NCBI RefSeq assembly: GCF_000420485.1 | Contig: NZ_ATVA01000013.1 | Coordinates: forward strand, 365,872-429,871 | DNA length: 64,000 nucleotides | DNA from: Paucidesulfovibrio longus DSM 6739 | GTDB lineage: Bacteria > Desulfobacterota > Desulfovibrionia > Desulfovibrionales > Desulfovibrionaceae | Reading direction: 5' to 3' | Part shown: piece after piece, positions 3,353 to 43,092 of the stretch | Position numbering within the stretch: position 1 is the first letter of the stretch | Layout of the letters: the number at the start of each line of letters is the position of its first letter | Notes under the pieces: generated by a model | Told to the model about the DNA's origin: nothing | What the model saw: only the letters and a program-made list of their open reading frames with translations | The model's database searches: none | Program-made: the position numbers and the translations under genes

Positions 3353-3384
3353 ACTGCGCGAAACGAGGTGCAAAGATTATCTGC

Positions 3385-3470
3385 GCCAAATTCCGTACGG
3401 CAGTGCGAACTGCTTCACGTTCGAAGGGTGTGATCTCAGCTTCGGTCCGACCGAAGCACCCCTATCGGCT
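3385..3470 (-). ncRNA. TPP riboswitch (THI element)
   Basis: Read on the minus strand this has the parts of a TPP aptamer in order. P1 is GCCGA pairing with TTTGGC. P2 is GGGTG pairing with CACCC. P3 is the stem CTTCGGTC/GACCGAAG, followed by the diagnostic CTGAGA. The second arm reads ACGTGAAGCAG, loop, CTGCCGTACGGA. The usual ACCTGA...CGTAGGGA core is changed at two positions that compensate each other (C to G and G to C), which supports a real fold. It lies directly upstream of the cytX permease and its 3' P1 strand overlaps a possible antiterminator. Confidence 0.9.
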
Positions 3471-3507
3471 GTTGTTTTGCCTAGCAGATCGCTCCTGCAT
3501 GAGCAAG

Positions 3508-39099: not shown

Positions 39100-40356
39100 C
39101 TAGACGTGCGCGGGGTGGGCGATTTCTCCGGCGATTGCCGAGGCCGCGGCCACGGCGGGACCGGACAGGTACACTTCGCTTTCCAGGCTGCCCATGCGGC
39201 CCTTGAAGTTGCGGTTGGTGGTGGCGATGGCGCGCTCGCCGCCCGCCAGAATGCCCATGTGCCCTCCCAGGCAGGGGCCGCAGGTGGCCGGACCGACGAT
39301 GCAGCCCGCTTCCATGAAGATTTCGAGCAGCCCCTCGCGCAGGGCCTGGGTCCAGATCCTGGGGGTGGCGGGCAGCACGATGCAGCGCACATGCTTCGCG
39401 ACCTTCCTGCCGCGCAGCACTGCGGCGGCCTCGCGCAGGTCTTCGATGCGGCCGTTGGTGCAGGAGCCGATCACGGACTGGTCCACCCGCAGCCCAGCGA
39501 CCTCGTCCACGGGGCGGACGTTGTCCGGCAGATGGGGGCAGGCGATCTGCGGGGACATGTCGTCCACGTTGATCTCCACGAGCCGCTCGTACTCGGCGTC
39601 CTTGTCCGGGAAGAGCACAACGTCGCCCTTGCGCCCGGCTTGTCCGGCATACTCCAGGGTCTTGCCGTCCACGGCGAAGAGTCCGACCTTGCCGCCCGCT
39701 TCGATGGCCATGTTGGCCATGGTCATGCGTCCCTCGACGGTGAGTCCTTCCACGATGGGACCGCAGAATTCAAGCGCCTTGTAGAGCGCACCGGCCACGC
39801 CGATCTCCCCGATCAGCTTCAGCATGTAGTCCTTGGCGCCCACGAACGGTTCGGGCTTGCCCTTGATCTCCACCTTGATGCTCGGCGGCACCTTGAACCA
39901 GGTTTCCCCAAGGGCCATGGCTCCGGCGATGTCCGTGGAGCCCATGCCCGTGGCGAACGCGCCCAGGCCGCCGTAGGTGCAGGTATGGCTGTCCGCGCCG
40001 ACCACCACGTCGCCGGGACCGACAAGCCCCAGCTCCGGCAGCAGGGCATGCTCCACTCCCACATTGCCGCCTTCGTAATAATGGGTCACGTCCATCTGCC
40101 GGGCGAAATCCCGCACGACCTTGACCTGTTCGGCGGAATCGATGTCCTTGTTGGGCGTGAAATGGTCGCAGACCAGCGCCACGCGGTCTTTGTCGAAGAC
40201 CTTTTCCGCGCCCATGGCCTTGAAGGACTTGATGGCGAGGGGAGCGGTAATGTCGTTGGCCAGGACCATGTCCACCCGGCAGCGGACGATCCGGCCGGAA
40301 GCGGCCTCCTCGTCGGTATGCCGCTGCAAAATCTTTTCAGCTAACGTCTGGGGCAT
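39100..40356 (-). CDS. leuC: 3-isopropylmalate dehydratase, large subunit
   Basis: A 418-residue aconitase-family subunit carrying a [4Fe-4S] cluster. Cysteine ligands appear in VIGSCTNGR (about 297-305) and in CIVGPATCGPCLGGH (about 354-368). DHFTPNKD and DSHTCTYGGLGAFATG near the N-terminus are further family marks. Its length (rather than about 470) marks the HacA/LeuC2 type, which works with a separate small LeuD. Three bases separate its ATG from the leuA stop and GAGGAG precedes it. The cluster makes the enzyme oxygen-sensitive. Confidence 0.95.
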   Translation of the reverse strand: MPQTLAEKILQRHTDEEAASGRIVRCRVDMVLANDITAPLAIKSFKAMGAEKVFDKDRVALVCDHFTPNKDIDSAEQVKVVRDFARQMDVTHYYEGGNVGVEHALLPELGLVGPGDVVVGADSHTCTYGGLGAFATGMGSTDIAGAMALGETWFKVPPSIKVEIKGKPEPFVGAKDYMLKLIGEIGVAGALYKALEFCGPIVEGLTVEGRMTMANMAIEAGGKVGLFAVDGKTLEYAGQAGRKGDVVLFPDKDAEYERLVEINVDDMSPQIACPHLPDNVRPVDEVAGLRVDQSVIGSCTNGRIEDLREAAAVLRGRKVAKHVRCIVLPATPRIWTQALREGLLEIFMEAGCIVGPATCGPCLGGHMGILAGGERAIATTNRNFKGRMGSLESEVYLSGPAVAAASAIAGEIAHPAHV

Positions 40357-40359
40357 CTG

Positions 40360-41898
40360 TCAGTTCTCCTCTTTGATCTTCATCAGCCGGTTCAAGGCGT
40401 TGACGAGCGCCATGGCCGATGCGCGGATGACGTCGGAATCGGCGGCGCGGCCCACGGCCCGAATGCCGTTCTCCTCAATGCGGATGCTGACCTGGCCCAG
40501 GGCGTCGGTCCCGGCGGTCACGGCATTGACGGAATAGCGCTCCAGCTTGGGGTGCACGTTCACCACGTCGCAGATGCAGCGGAACACGGCGTCCACGCAT
40601 CCCTTGCCGAAGACGACGTTCGTCTTTTCCTCCACCAGCTCGCCGTCGCGGAGGAACTCCATGACCACGGCGGCCTGGGGAGGCACGCTGCCGGAACTGG
40701 AAGAAACGCTCATGTCCTTGATGCGGAAAAGGTCGCGCTTGCGGAAGACCTTTTCCATGATCATGGCCTGCACGTCTTCGTCGTAAATCTTTTCCTTCTT
40801 GTCCGCCAGATCCTTGACGGCCTGGAAAACCACGGCCAGCTGGGCGTCGTCCAGATCGTAGCCCAGCTCCTTGACCTTGGCCTTGATTGCATGGGAGCCG
40901 GAATGCTTGCCGATGACCATTTCCGTGCCGGAGCGGCCGATGGCCTCCGGAGTCATGATCTCGTAGGTCATGCGGTTCTTGAGCATGCCGTCCTGATGCA
41001 CGCCGGATTCGTGGGCAAAGGCGTTGGGTCCGACCACGGCCTTGTACGGCGGAATGGGCTGGCCGATGATCTGGGCCAGGCGTCGGCAGGAGGGGAAGAG
41101 CTGGGTGGTGTCCACTCCGGTTTCCACCTCGTAGGCTTCCTTGCGGGTGTTCAAGGCCATGATGACCTCTTCCAGGGCCGCGTTGCCCGCGCGCTCGCCG
41201 ATGCCGGAAATGGTGCACTCCACCTGCCGGGCTCCGGCGCGGATGGCCGCCAGGGTGTTGGCCACGGCCAGGCCGAGATCGTTGTGGCAGTGCACCGAGA
41301 AGACGGCCTTGTGGCTGTTGGGCACCTTCTCGATCAGATATTTGATCAGATCGTGGTATTCGAAAGGCTGGATGTAGCCCACGGTGTCGGGAATGTTCAC
41401 CGTGGTTGCGCCGCAGTCGATGACCAGCTCGCAGACCTTGGCCAGAAAGCCCCAGTCCGAGCGGGAGGCGTCCTCGGCGGAAAACTCCACGTTGGGGGTC
41501 AGGGACACGGCATGGCGAACGGCCGCTTCGGCCATTTCAAGCACCTGCTCCGGCGTGCGCTGAAGCTTGTACTTCATGTGAATGTCGCTGGTGGCGAGGA
41601 AGGTGTGAATGCGCGGATTCTTGGCAACCTTGACGGCCTCCCAGGCGCGGTCGATGTCTTTCAGCACGGAGCGGCAGAGCCCGGCCACCTGCACGCCGTC
41701 CCCCACGGAACGGGCGATTTCGCGCACGGCCTCGAAGTCGCCCTGGCTGGCGATGGGAAAACCCGCCTCGATGATGTCCACGCCCAGCGTCTCGAGCTGC
41801 CGGGCCATGCTGATCTTCTCGTGCAGGTTCATGGTCGCGCCGGGCGACTGCTCGCCGTCGCGGAGGGTGGTGTCGAATACGTATACGCGGTCAGCCAT
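40360..41898 (-). CDS. leuA: 2-isopropylmalate synthase
   Basis: A 512-residue enzyme condensing 2-oxoisovalerate with acetyl-CoA, the first committed step of leucine synthesis. [15 protein letters not shown] near the start is the DRE-TIM metallolyase signature, with [19 protein letters not shown] and GIGERAGNA in the middle. The C-terminal region from about residue 385 is the regulatory domain that binds leucine. The ATG at 41898 follows GGAGGCTGTC. It is preceded by a leucine-rich leader peptide and candidate attenuator (42022-42122) and its own sigma-70 promoter, so leucine should control it both by feedback and by attenuation. Confidence 0.96.
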
Positions 41899-42021
41899 GA
41901 CAGCCTCCATCGGTTTGTGGAAGGTAAACGTTCAGCGCCATGCCCGCAACAGGATACACCGGCGCCAGGGACAATACCGGCTCTCCGGGGGCAAGGGAGA
42001 GAAAATCTATGATTTGAAGCA

Positions 42022-42068
42022 ACGCGCGGTTCGCGCGTGATTGCGCCCCCCTATAGGGATAGGGGGCG
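42022..42068 (-). promoter_or_regulatory. Candidate leu attenuator stem-loops
   Basis: Two stem-loops on the minus strand follow the leucine codons. The first (42068-42044) pairs CGCCCCC-TAT with ATA-GGGGGCG and covers the last codons and stop of the leader peptide. The second (42038-42022) is a perfect ACGCGCG/CGCGCGT stem followed by TTGCTTC. Only one can be kept open by a stalled ribosome. The second lacks a long T-tract, so whether termination or another control results is not clear. Confidence 0.5.
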
Positions 42069-42122
42069 TAGAGAGAGGGAGAGAAGAAGAGCCGCATGGG
42101 CTCGGGAGAAAGAAGAGATCAT
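42051..42122 (-). CDS. leuL: Leucine-operon leader peptide
   Basis: A 23-codon reading frame, start ATG at 42122, stop TAG at 42053-42051. After MISSFSRAHAA the last twelve codons contain seven leucines (CTT, CTT, CTC, CTC, CTA, CTA, CTA), including three of the CTA type, in the pattern LLLSLSLRPLSL. Such a peptide senses charged leucine tRNA: low leucine stalls the ribosome and spares leuA transcription. It lies 152 bases before leuA and directly behind a TTGACA promoter. The expected transcript starts only two or three bases before its ATG, so it may be read as a nearly leaderless message; GAGG lies just before it. Stem-loops follow the leucine run. Confidence 0.75.
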   Translation of the reverse strand: MISSFSRAHAALLLSLSLRPLSL

Positions 42123-42130
42123 TTGCCTCG

Positions 42131-42160
42131 AAGGTAGTCGCGGGACTCGCGTGCTGTCAA
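42131..42160 (-). promoter_or_regulatory. Sigma-70 promoter of the leu operon
   Basis: TTGACA (42160-42155) with TACCTT (42136-42131) and an 18-base spacer, on the minus strand. Transcription would start near 42124, almost at the leader-peptide ATG. A preceding terminator (42223-42262) insulates it from pssA. Confidence 0.75.
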
Positions 42161-42222: not shown

Positions 42223-42262
42223 AAAAACAAACGGGCCGAACGGGCAAACGCCGCTCGGCCCG
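42223..42262 (-). terminator. Intrinsic terminator of psd-pssA
   Basis: CGGGCCGA and TCGGCCCG arms at 42232-42239 and 42255-42262 with an inner GGGC/GCCG part, followed on the minus strand by TTTGTTTTT. It ends the phospholipid transcript about 40 bases after pssA. Confidence 0.85.
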
Positions 42263-42300
42263 CAATGCGCTTTGCCCGAGAGTGCGCGGCTTCGTCTCCG

Positions 42301-43092
42301 CTAGCGCCCGCCCTCTTTTTCGCCATGTTCCGCATCCTCGTGCGGCGGCTGCGAGAGCTTGGCCCCGCGCCGCGAAAGCACGAACAGCGTATAGCCGAGG
42401 CCCGAAGCGATGTAGGCCAGAAAGATCAGGAAGCCAAGGACACGGGGCTTGGTGGCCACGAGCACGAAAAGCAGGATGGCCACGACCATGGTGCTGAAGG
42501 AATGGGCGCGCAGAAAGCCGAGCTCCTTGAAGGAGGCGAAGCGCACCGTGCTGACCATCAGGAAGGAAAGCAGGTAGACCAGCACAAGCAGGGCCGGAGC
42601 CAGGGACGTCTCCGCGATGTGCGGCGGGACGAAAGGCATGAAGAGCACAAGCGTGGCCAGGGTGCAGGCCGCGGCGGGAATGGGCAGGCCGGTGAAGAAG
42701 CGCTTGTCCGTGACCTTGACCTGGACGTTGAAACGAGCCAGACGCAACGCCCCGCAGGCCACAAGCAGGAACGAGGCCATCAGGCCCAGGCGGCCGAACT
42801 GCGAAAGCTGCCACATGTAGACCAGGATCGCGGGGGAAACGCCGAAAGCCACGAGATCGGCCAGGGAATCGTACTGGACCCCGAATTCGCTGGTGGTGTT
42901 GGTCATGCGCGCCACCCTGCCGTCCAGGGCGTCGAAGACGGCGCTGCCCAGGATGGCCAGCGCGCAGGACTCGAAATCGCCGCGCACGGACCAAACCATG
43001 CCCATGAACCCCAGAAAGAGGCTGGCGGTGGTAAACAGGTTGGGCAGGATGTAGACGGCCTTGCTGCGCGGCAGCCGCTTGCGAACAGCCAT
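42301..43092 (-). CDS. pssA: CDP-diacylglycerol-serine O-phosphatidyltransferase
   Basis: A 263-residue membrane enzyme making phosphatidylserine. It has the CDP-alcohol phosphotransferase signature, read as DALDGRVAR then G...D...D: the three parts DGRVAR, FGVQYD and SLAD are in register. Eight or so hydrophobic segments follow. This is the short, integral-membrane (type II) Pss, not the soluble enterobacterial form. The stop is close to a terminator and the ATG at 43092 is 12 bases after psd, so psd and pssA form a two-gene transcript that makes phosphatidylethanolamine. Confidence 0.94.
   Translation of the reverse strand: MAVRKRLPRSKAVYILPNLFTTASLFLGFMGMVWSVRGDFESCALAILGSAVFDALDGRVARMTNTTSEFGVQYDSLADLVAFGVSPAILVYMWQLSQFGRLGLMASFLLVACGALRLARFNVQVKVTDKRFFTGLPIPAAACTLATLVLFMPFVPPHIAETSLAPALLVLVYLLSFLMVSTVRFASFKELGFLRAHSFSTMVVAILLFVLVATKPRVLGFLIFLAYIASGLGYTLFVLSRRGAKLSQPPHEDAEHGEKEGGR

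Follow-up and report, generated by a model that had tools for sequence, protein, structure and literature searches.

The stretch of DNA analysed, hereafter called the window, comprises 64,000 nucleotides of the genome of Paucidesulfovibrio longus DSM 6739. On its minus strand it carries, in this order, psd (match to PF02666), pssA, a strong intrinsic terminator, a promoter-like TTGACA/TACCTT sequence, a short leader frame and, 152 nt beyond the stop codon of that frame, leuA (ATG at 41898), followed by leuC (Table 1). The leader frame ends with TAG (42053-42051), and its last 12 codons (LLLSLSLRPLSL) include seven for leucine, of which three are CTA (42071-42069, 42062-42060 and 42056-42054), making up three of the final six codons. 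The promoter-like stretch has an 18-nt spacer between TTGACA and TACCTT, and 8 nt between TACCTT and the ATG. The -10 sequence is weak, matching TATAAT at three of six positions, and a generic sigma-70 scan of the window reported no promoter at the leader.

Table 1 Features at the leuA locus of the window
Feature	Position	Strand	Remarks
-35 element TTGACA	42155..42160	-	Direct reading; invariant in three genus members
Predicted -10 element TACCTT	42131..42136	-	TAGCGT and TAGCTT in relatives; weak match
Leader peptide ORF, 23 codons and TAG, MISSFSRAHAALLLSLSLRPLSL	42051..42122	-	Read from the sequence; L086 and L087 also have a frame of 23 codons here
Control region CTA CGC CCC CTA TCC CTA	42054..42071	-	CTA positions invariant in three species
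Hairpin H1 (1:2), CGCCCCCT/GGGGGGCG, over the stop codon	42044..42068	-	Fold z; invariance in three species
CTCTCCCTTGCCCCCGGAGAG: local hairpin CTCTCC/GGAGAG and candidate arm 3	41981..42001	-	Contains invariant GCCCCCGGAGAGCCGG
Intrinsic terminator of pssA	42231..42263	-	13 pairs, then TTGTTTTTCC; separates pssA from the leader
pssA, CDP-diacylglycerol-serine O-phosphatidyltransferase	42301..43092	-	TIGR00473 above cut-off
leuA, 2-isopropylmalate synthase	40360..41898	-	TIGR00973 and NF002086 above cut-off
leuC, 3-isopropylmalate dehydratase large subunit	39100..40356	-	TIGR02083 above cut-off; downstream of leuA

A sequence-only reading of this DNA had described a 23-codon frame behind TTGACA with seven leucine codons in its last 12, three of them CTA, and leuA 152 nt further on. 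Direct reading confirmed this description, and among the 469 ATG-started frames of 15-45 codons in the window (nested starts counted) the leader was the only one with at least seven leucine codons, or at least three CTA, in its last 12 codons. CTA made up 35 of the 1994 leucine codons (1.8 %) in 44 mechanically chosen ORFs of the window, a rate at which three or more CTA among seven leucine codons have a binomial probability of 1.8e-4. The pssA gene of the window has no CTA at its end (0 of 41 leucine codons).

The leader region had no match in Rfam, the enterobacterial Leu leader included, at the gathering score, and at E ≤ 10 only three matches to microRNA families, far below gathering, were obtained. 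No match to the T-box (RF00230) was found in the window. Elsewhere in the window, a TPP riboswitch (3374-3473, minus strand) scored above the Rfam gathering score.

The leader in sister species

Three genomes of the genus were compared, the window's own and those with the loci L086 and L087, and the element was present in all three. They have in common the TTGACA-18-TAnnnT-8-ATG spacing, the 23 codons, the three CTA, the sequence CTACGCCCCCTATnCCTATAGGGGGGC and, farther downstream, GCCCCCGGAGAGCCGG. The N-terminal half of the leader peptide varies among them. Alignment with relatives had been proposed earlier as a check for conserved leucine runs; the three CTA are indeed invariant in all three species, but the run itself is not fixed, with seven, six and four leucine codons, respectively. 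The region of hairpin H1 (42071-42045) is invariant in the three species apart from one loop base, with the outermost pair lost, and its fold z value was -2.7 in the window and -1.8 and -1.0 in the two relatives.

If transcription starts as far from the -10 box as is usual, the predicted transcript would begin 1-3 nt before the ATG, rendering the message nearly leaderless in all three genus members. That the leader is leaderless or nearly so had been suggested from the window alone, and the promoter-to-ATG geometry kept in all three species agrees with this. The locus L088, from a neighbouring genus, likewise has 32 nt between TTGACA and ATG.

Leucine codons and base pairing at the end of pssA

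In the family to which the genus belongs, pssA precedes leuA in 78 of the 105 primary loci read, and is not found there in the other 27. CTA occurs in the last 30 codons of pssA in 67 of these 78 loci (absent in 11), corresponding to 22 of the 26 genera of the family. It accounts for 155 of 394 leucine codons in the last 30 codons and for 11 of 2554 before them (Fisher p 2e-133, which is not a true probability since the loci are related). CTA at the end of pssA was also found in every one of the 17 genomes from five other families, f2 to f6 (f3 and f6 represented by one genome each), and, outside the genus of the window, in all 15 named loci that could be read, including Pseudodesulfovibrio, Desulfomicrobium, Desulfonatronospira and Desulfonatronovibrio. 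The named loci derive partly from the same genomes as the family and order counts (L010/L224 and L016/L226, while L006 is apparently the same genome as L086), so that these counts overlap; L011, in which the pssA frame enters masked bases (its readable end has CTA), and L021, with no pssA in range, were left out.

Altogether, pssA precedes leuA in 112 loci, and in 99 of them CTA occurs among its last 30 codons, the anatomy expected if the end of the upstream gene serves as the leader. The distance from the pssA stop codon to leuA was 30-478 nt over all loci, mostly 90-320 nt. Along the gene, the CTA profile of 103 loci drops sharply 20 codons from the stop: 244 of 440 leucine codons are CTA in the last 20 codons, as opposed to 11 of 3358 in the body. 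The nine loci outside this profile, whose pssA tails have no control codons, are the three of g1, L088, L090, L097, L100, L144 and L158. Locus counts are not independent, as the loci are related and 23 of 67 forks of the pssA tree are open.

The idea that rare codons generally increase towards the ends of genes was rejected, as 205 other genes in the loci of the relatives had no such rise (CTA 12 of 560 in the tail, 90 of 6073 in the body). CTA as a property of pssA itself was rejected as well. Among the 27 family genomes without pssA before leuA, 22 have it elsewhere, and the 21 copies that could be read to the stop codon (L244 runs off its contig) contained CTA in 0 of 38 leucine codons in the last 20 codons, 0 of 70 in the last 30 and 7 of 675 in the body. 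A single tail CTA was present in 3 of 13 outgroup loci with pssA near leuA. Since other genes, detached pssA copies and outgroups do not match the pattern, tail CTA is tied, in this order of bacteria, to a pssA that precedes leuA. Of ten other codons compared between pssA tail and body, CGA, which lies inside H1 (45 of 326 vs 24 of 852), and TCA (33 of 282 vs 72 of 1539) were raised, and ACA slightly.

The commonest hairpin at the end of pssA has the form CTA CGR GAG ... CTC TCG TAA; here the stop codon pairs with the TA of the leucine codon. The hairpin set comprised 56 distinct stretches of 36 nt with CTA, or with CTG before CG, 37 of which start with CT[AG]CG, and 34 distinct stretches entered the covariation test. 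In these, 83.3 % of the cells were paired, compared with 75.5 ± 1.2 % after shuffling, and 22 cells were altered on both sides, compared with 8.3 ± 3.0; neither value was reached in 500 shuffles. Two further covariation measures were weaker, being reached by 40 and 36 of 500 shuffles. When the partner was slid along, at most 48 % of the cells were paired, a comparison that favours the named helix because it had been picked by eye on these same sequences. In one clade GAG...CTC TCG has become GAA...TTC CCG, which replaces Leu-Ser by Phe-Pro and keeps the pairs. In codons 13-20 from the pssA stop, outside the usual hairpin, 87 of 180 leucine codons are CTA, so that base pairing alone does not explain the codon.

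In the genera g8 and g29 (e.g. L105, L108, L098 and L097), base pairing is possible between the hairpin loop, which is of the GTCCTCCAAAG or GTCCCAGAAGG type, and TTTTGGAGGAC or CCTTTTGGGAC farther downstream. The z values of this pairing lay between -1.6 and -4.4 in the majority of these loci and at -0.3 in L107, and it is perhaps a clade-specific switch.

Loci with free-standing leaders

Tail CTA is missing in 13 of the 112 loci with pssA before leuA. In eight of these (the three of g1, L088, L090, L097, L100 and L144) a frame with CTA stands by itself, its stop codon 103-152 nt before leuA. The window belongs here and not with the upstream-gene-end leaders, having its own promoter-like sequence, a terminator behind pssA and no tail CTA. 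Neither tail CTA nor an identified CTA leader was found in the remaining five, L158, L161 and L171, which were inspected, and L231 and L232, which lay outside the leader search; L161 and L171 have pssA tails with CTG, plus strong terminators.

The two forms occur side by side in the genus g29. In two species pssA ends with ...LLRESQKEPS or ...LLRESRKEQIS, and in three others this end of pssA has been lost and the leader carries ...LFLRESQRVSS, LILRESQRDSL or LILRESQKDSL. Tail form and leader form share the same CTACGMGAGTCCC. In a tree of pssA from which the tail was excluded, the free leaders correspond to four changes, at least three of them forced by well-supported branches, and are nested inside the tail-CTA state; the tree is a quick one of 70 chosen rows, in which 23 of 67 inner branches are weak.

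Genera without pssA before leuA also have leucine-rich leaders, several with strong terminators (g42, g35 and some of g19), and in the 27 family loci of this kind the leaders are clear only in part. A generic leucine-density test of 35 loci (nine with pssA but no tail control codons and 26 without pssA, one further locus being too short) gave p ≤ 0.05 in 13. The test misses L086 narrowly (p 0.055), as well as L087 (p 0.86) and the g29 leaders.

Two further observations were made on these loci. The long pssA-leuA gap of g21 (L111, L113, L114, L116 and L117) holds an extra small frame besides the pssA tail, MAHAVV...LSFVRQFANLRL in two loci and ...YRPxGPLLxxLxAN in three, which may be a second leader or may represent an intermediate stage. 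The genome G100 has two pssA-leuA loci, L159 and L178; on the tree, from which L178 is absent, L159 groups with another genus and may be a contamination of the G100 assembly.

From the leader to leuA

No canonical intrinsic terminator was found between the leader and leuA in the window, where the terminator scan gave a weak five-pair site inside the leader frame (42103-42089), and the two sister species have only weak terminator candidates before leuA. Clear terminators (dG of -14 or lower and at least five T, within 100 nt of leuA; hand-picked from the list) precede leuA in about eight genera, and g6 just passes in addition. No single terminator common to all genera was found.

Arms 1 (CGCCCCCT) and 2 (GGGGGGCG) and a candidate arm 3 (GCCCCC, 41992-41987) can be named in the window. 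Arm 3, about 50 nt below, can pair with the GGGGGGC arm of H1 in a 2:3 duplex of -15.7 kcal/mol; the arm is conserved in the three species, yet the pairing is no better than in shuffled sequences (z 0.0). Over 84 loci, neither hairpin arm had an excess of long-range pairing with the downstream leader over shuffles (mean z -0.15 for both arms), apart from individual loci of g8, g29 and g39. In g39 (L175) arms 1 (CTACTACGCCGACTT), 2 (AAGTCAGGCGAC) and 3 (GTCGCCTGTCAAAAC) and a fourth, the complement of 3 followed by T7, are readable, the arms having been picked by eye.

The predicted openness of the leuA ribosome site did not differ overall between a stalled and a finished ribosome (0.40 and 0.41 over 95 loci, 13 of which differ by more than 0.2), and a general translational output was rejected on this ground. 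In g38 the site is predicted to be more open with a stalled ribosome in five of five loci. A C-rich, ACCCCCTC-like stretch was seen by eye 5-20 nt after the pssA stop codon in several families (e.g. L010, L139, L217 and L219) and is a possible Rho-binding site.

Discussion

The leader of the window is real and conserved, and we read it as a form of leucine attenuation in which the end of pssA acts, or once acted, as the leader. Judged from the sequences, the leader probably controls leuA by ribosome-mediated attenuation in response to leucine, with a control region that was ancestrally the 3' end of pssA. The sensing half of this prediction is well supported; the output half we infer. Attenuation as read from the window alone is strengthened by the conserved CTA, the hairpin over the stop codon, the near-leaderless geometry and the control codons before leuA in most relatives examined, and weakened by the canonical terminator that was not found in the window. 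Long-range pairing no better than in shuffled sequences, the five loci with neither tail CTA nor an identified CTA leader, the 27 loci without pssA whose leaders are clear only in part, and the Streptomyces result given below also count against it. The picture of an isolated leader of the enteric kind proved incomplete: the leader is probably the detached descendant of an element present across the order, which mostly has its control codons at the 3' end of pssA.

In the proposed mechanism, a shortage of leucyl-tRNA would make the ribosome stall, most likely at the CTA codons. With leucine present the ribosome would pass these codons and leave, hairpin 1:2 would form and few polymerases would reach leuA. 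With leucine absent the ribosome stalled on CTA would cover arm 1 and free arm 2 (GGGGGGC) for pairing with the downstream GCCCCC, and transcription would go on. In the ancestor of the order the control region would have been the pssA 3' end itself, pssA and leuA being read together; in the window's genus it would have split off as a leader gene that is nearly leaderless and has its own promoter, pssA now being closed by a terminator. For the Desulfovibrionales as a whole it is likely that the last 20 codons of pssA are dual-coded as a leucine sensor for leuA, in which codons and even amino acids are selected for stalling and the hairpin over the enzyme. Leader genes such as that of the window would have been cut loose from this tail with a promoter of their own at least three times, suggesting that leader peptides can be born from ordinary gene ends.

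The strongest alternative keeps the leucine sensing and is compatible with attenuation as proposed here, differing in that the stalled ribosome would control leuA translation or Rho-dependent termination. It is possible, if somewhat doubtful: many genera besides the window have no canonical terminator that was found, C-rich stretches follow the stop codon in several families and the ribosome site in g38 points the same way, but the strong hairpin with a U-run before leuA in about eight genera and the equal openness over 95 loci speak against it. Much less probable is that the hairpin alone is kept, serving RNA processing or partial termination behind pssA, and that CTA is common merely by pairing with the stop codon TAG or TAA. 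The TA of CTA does pair with the TA of the stop in many loci and the hairpin covaries, but CTA is frequent outside the hairpin core as well, pssA copies without leuA next to them have none, and free-standing leucine-rich leaders, five of them without CTA, precede leuA where the pssA tail does not. Coincidence, in which the leucine codons come about by chance in a pyrimidine-rich stretch, would fit the variable N-terminal half, the relative with only four leucine codons and the generic density test (13 of 35 loci, with two of the three genus members failing), but is extremely improbable in view of the single frame among 469, the preservation in three species of the three CTA, the hairpin, the length of the frame and the promoter spacing, and the order-wide counterpart in pssA only where leuA follows, a comparison that already contradicts it.

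Leucine attenuation with a leader derived from pssA resembles the enterobacterial leu attenuator (leuL) in its leucine control codons, the rare codon CUA, the position of the leader before leuA and the predicted alternative hairpins. The window differs from leuL in that its control codons reach the stop inside hairpin 1:2, the message is predicted to be nearly leaderless and no canonical terminator was found, and most of the relatives examined here differ in having the control codons in the end of pssA. According to PMC1183508, the Salmonella leu leader has three CUA codons, their replacement by CUG lowers sensitivity, and theory singles out CUA. That the same codon is used here agrees with selective tRNA charging theory.

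The actinobacterial LEU element, as PMC1262725 describes it, has a leader ORF with leucine codons before leuA, as here, and a conserved pseudoknot of its own; mutations of the leucine codons in the Streptomyces leuA leader did not have the effects expected of classical attenuation. A survey whose table lists 10 for Desulfovibrionales, apparently genomes, states that attenuators of amino-acid operons may have arisen in gamma-proteobacteria and been transferred very rarely (PMC3766115). A terminator survey covered intergenic stretches and short frames (PMC2965389), so that control codons inside pssA would escape it. Surveys limited to intergenic regions would in general miss the pssA-tail form. 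Among the matches listed in our literature search, no report of a leucine attenuator in Desulfovibrionales or of control codons in pssA was recognised; subscription papers were mostly outside that search, so that such a report may nevertheless exist.

As a rule, the leader peptides of amino-acid operons are viewed as tiny, dedicated genes whose origin is unclear. The order-wide series, with control codons either in the end of an enzyme gene or in a separate leader, makes the origin of leader peptides testable. The rph-pyrE attenuator of E. coli is similar to the pssA-tail form in that the 3' end of an upstream, full-length gene acts as the leader, its translation governing transcription of the next gene; it senses UTP via polymerase pausing and is not known to have amino-acid control codons.

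If the proposed control is true, a membrane-lipid gene and leucine synthesis are tied together on one transcript, at a junction that carries a T-box in another bacterial group. T-boxes read uncharged tRNA directly, and the Geobacter-type element, at the same pssA-leuA junction, is unlike the leaders described here in having no leader peptide. It was found in the pssA-leuA gap of 8 of the 10 Geobacter-type outgroup loci searched (L063, L073, L074, L076, L077, L078, L082 and L085).
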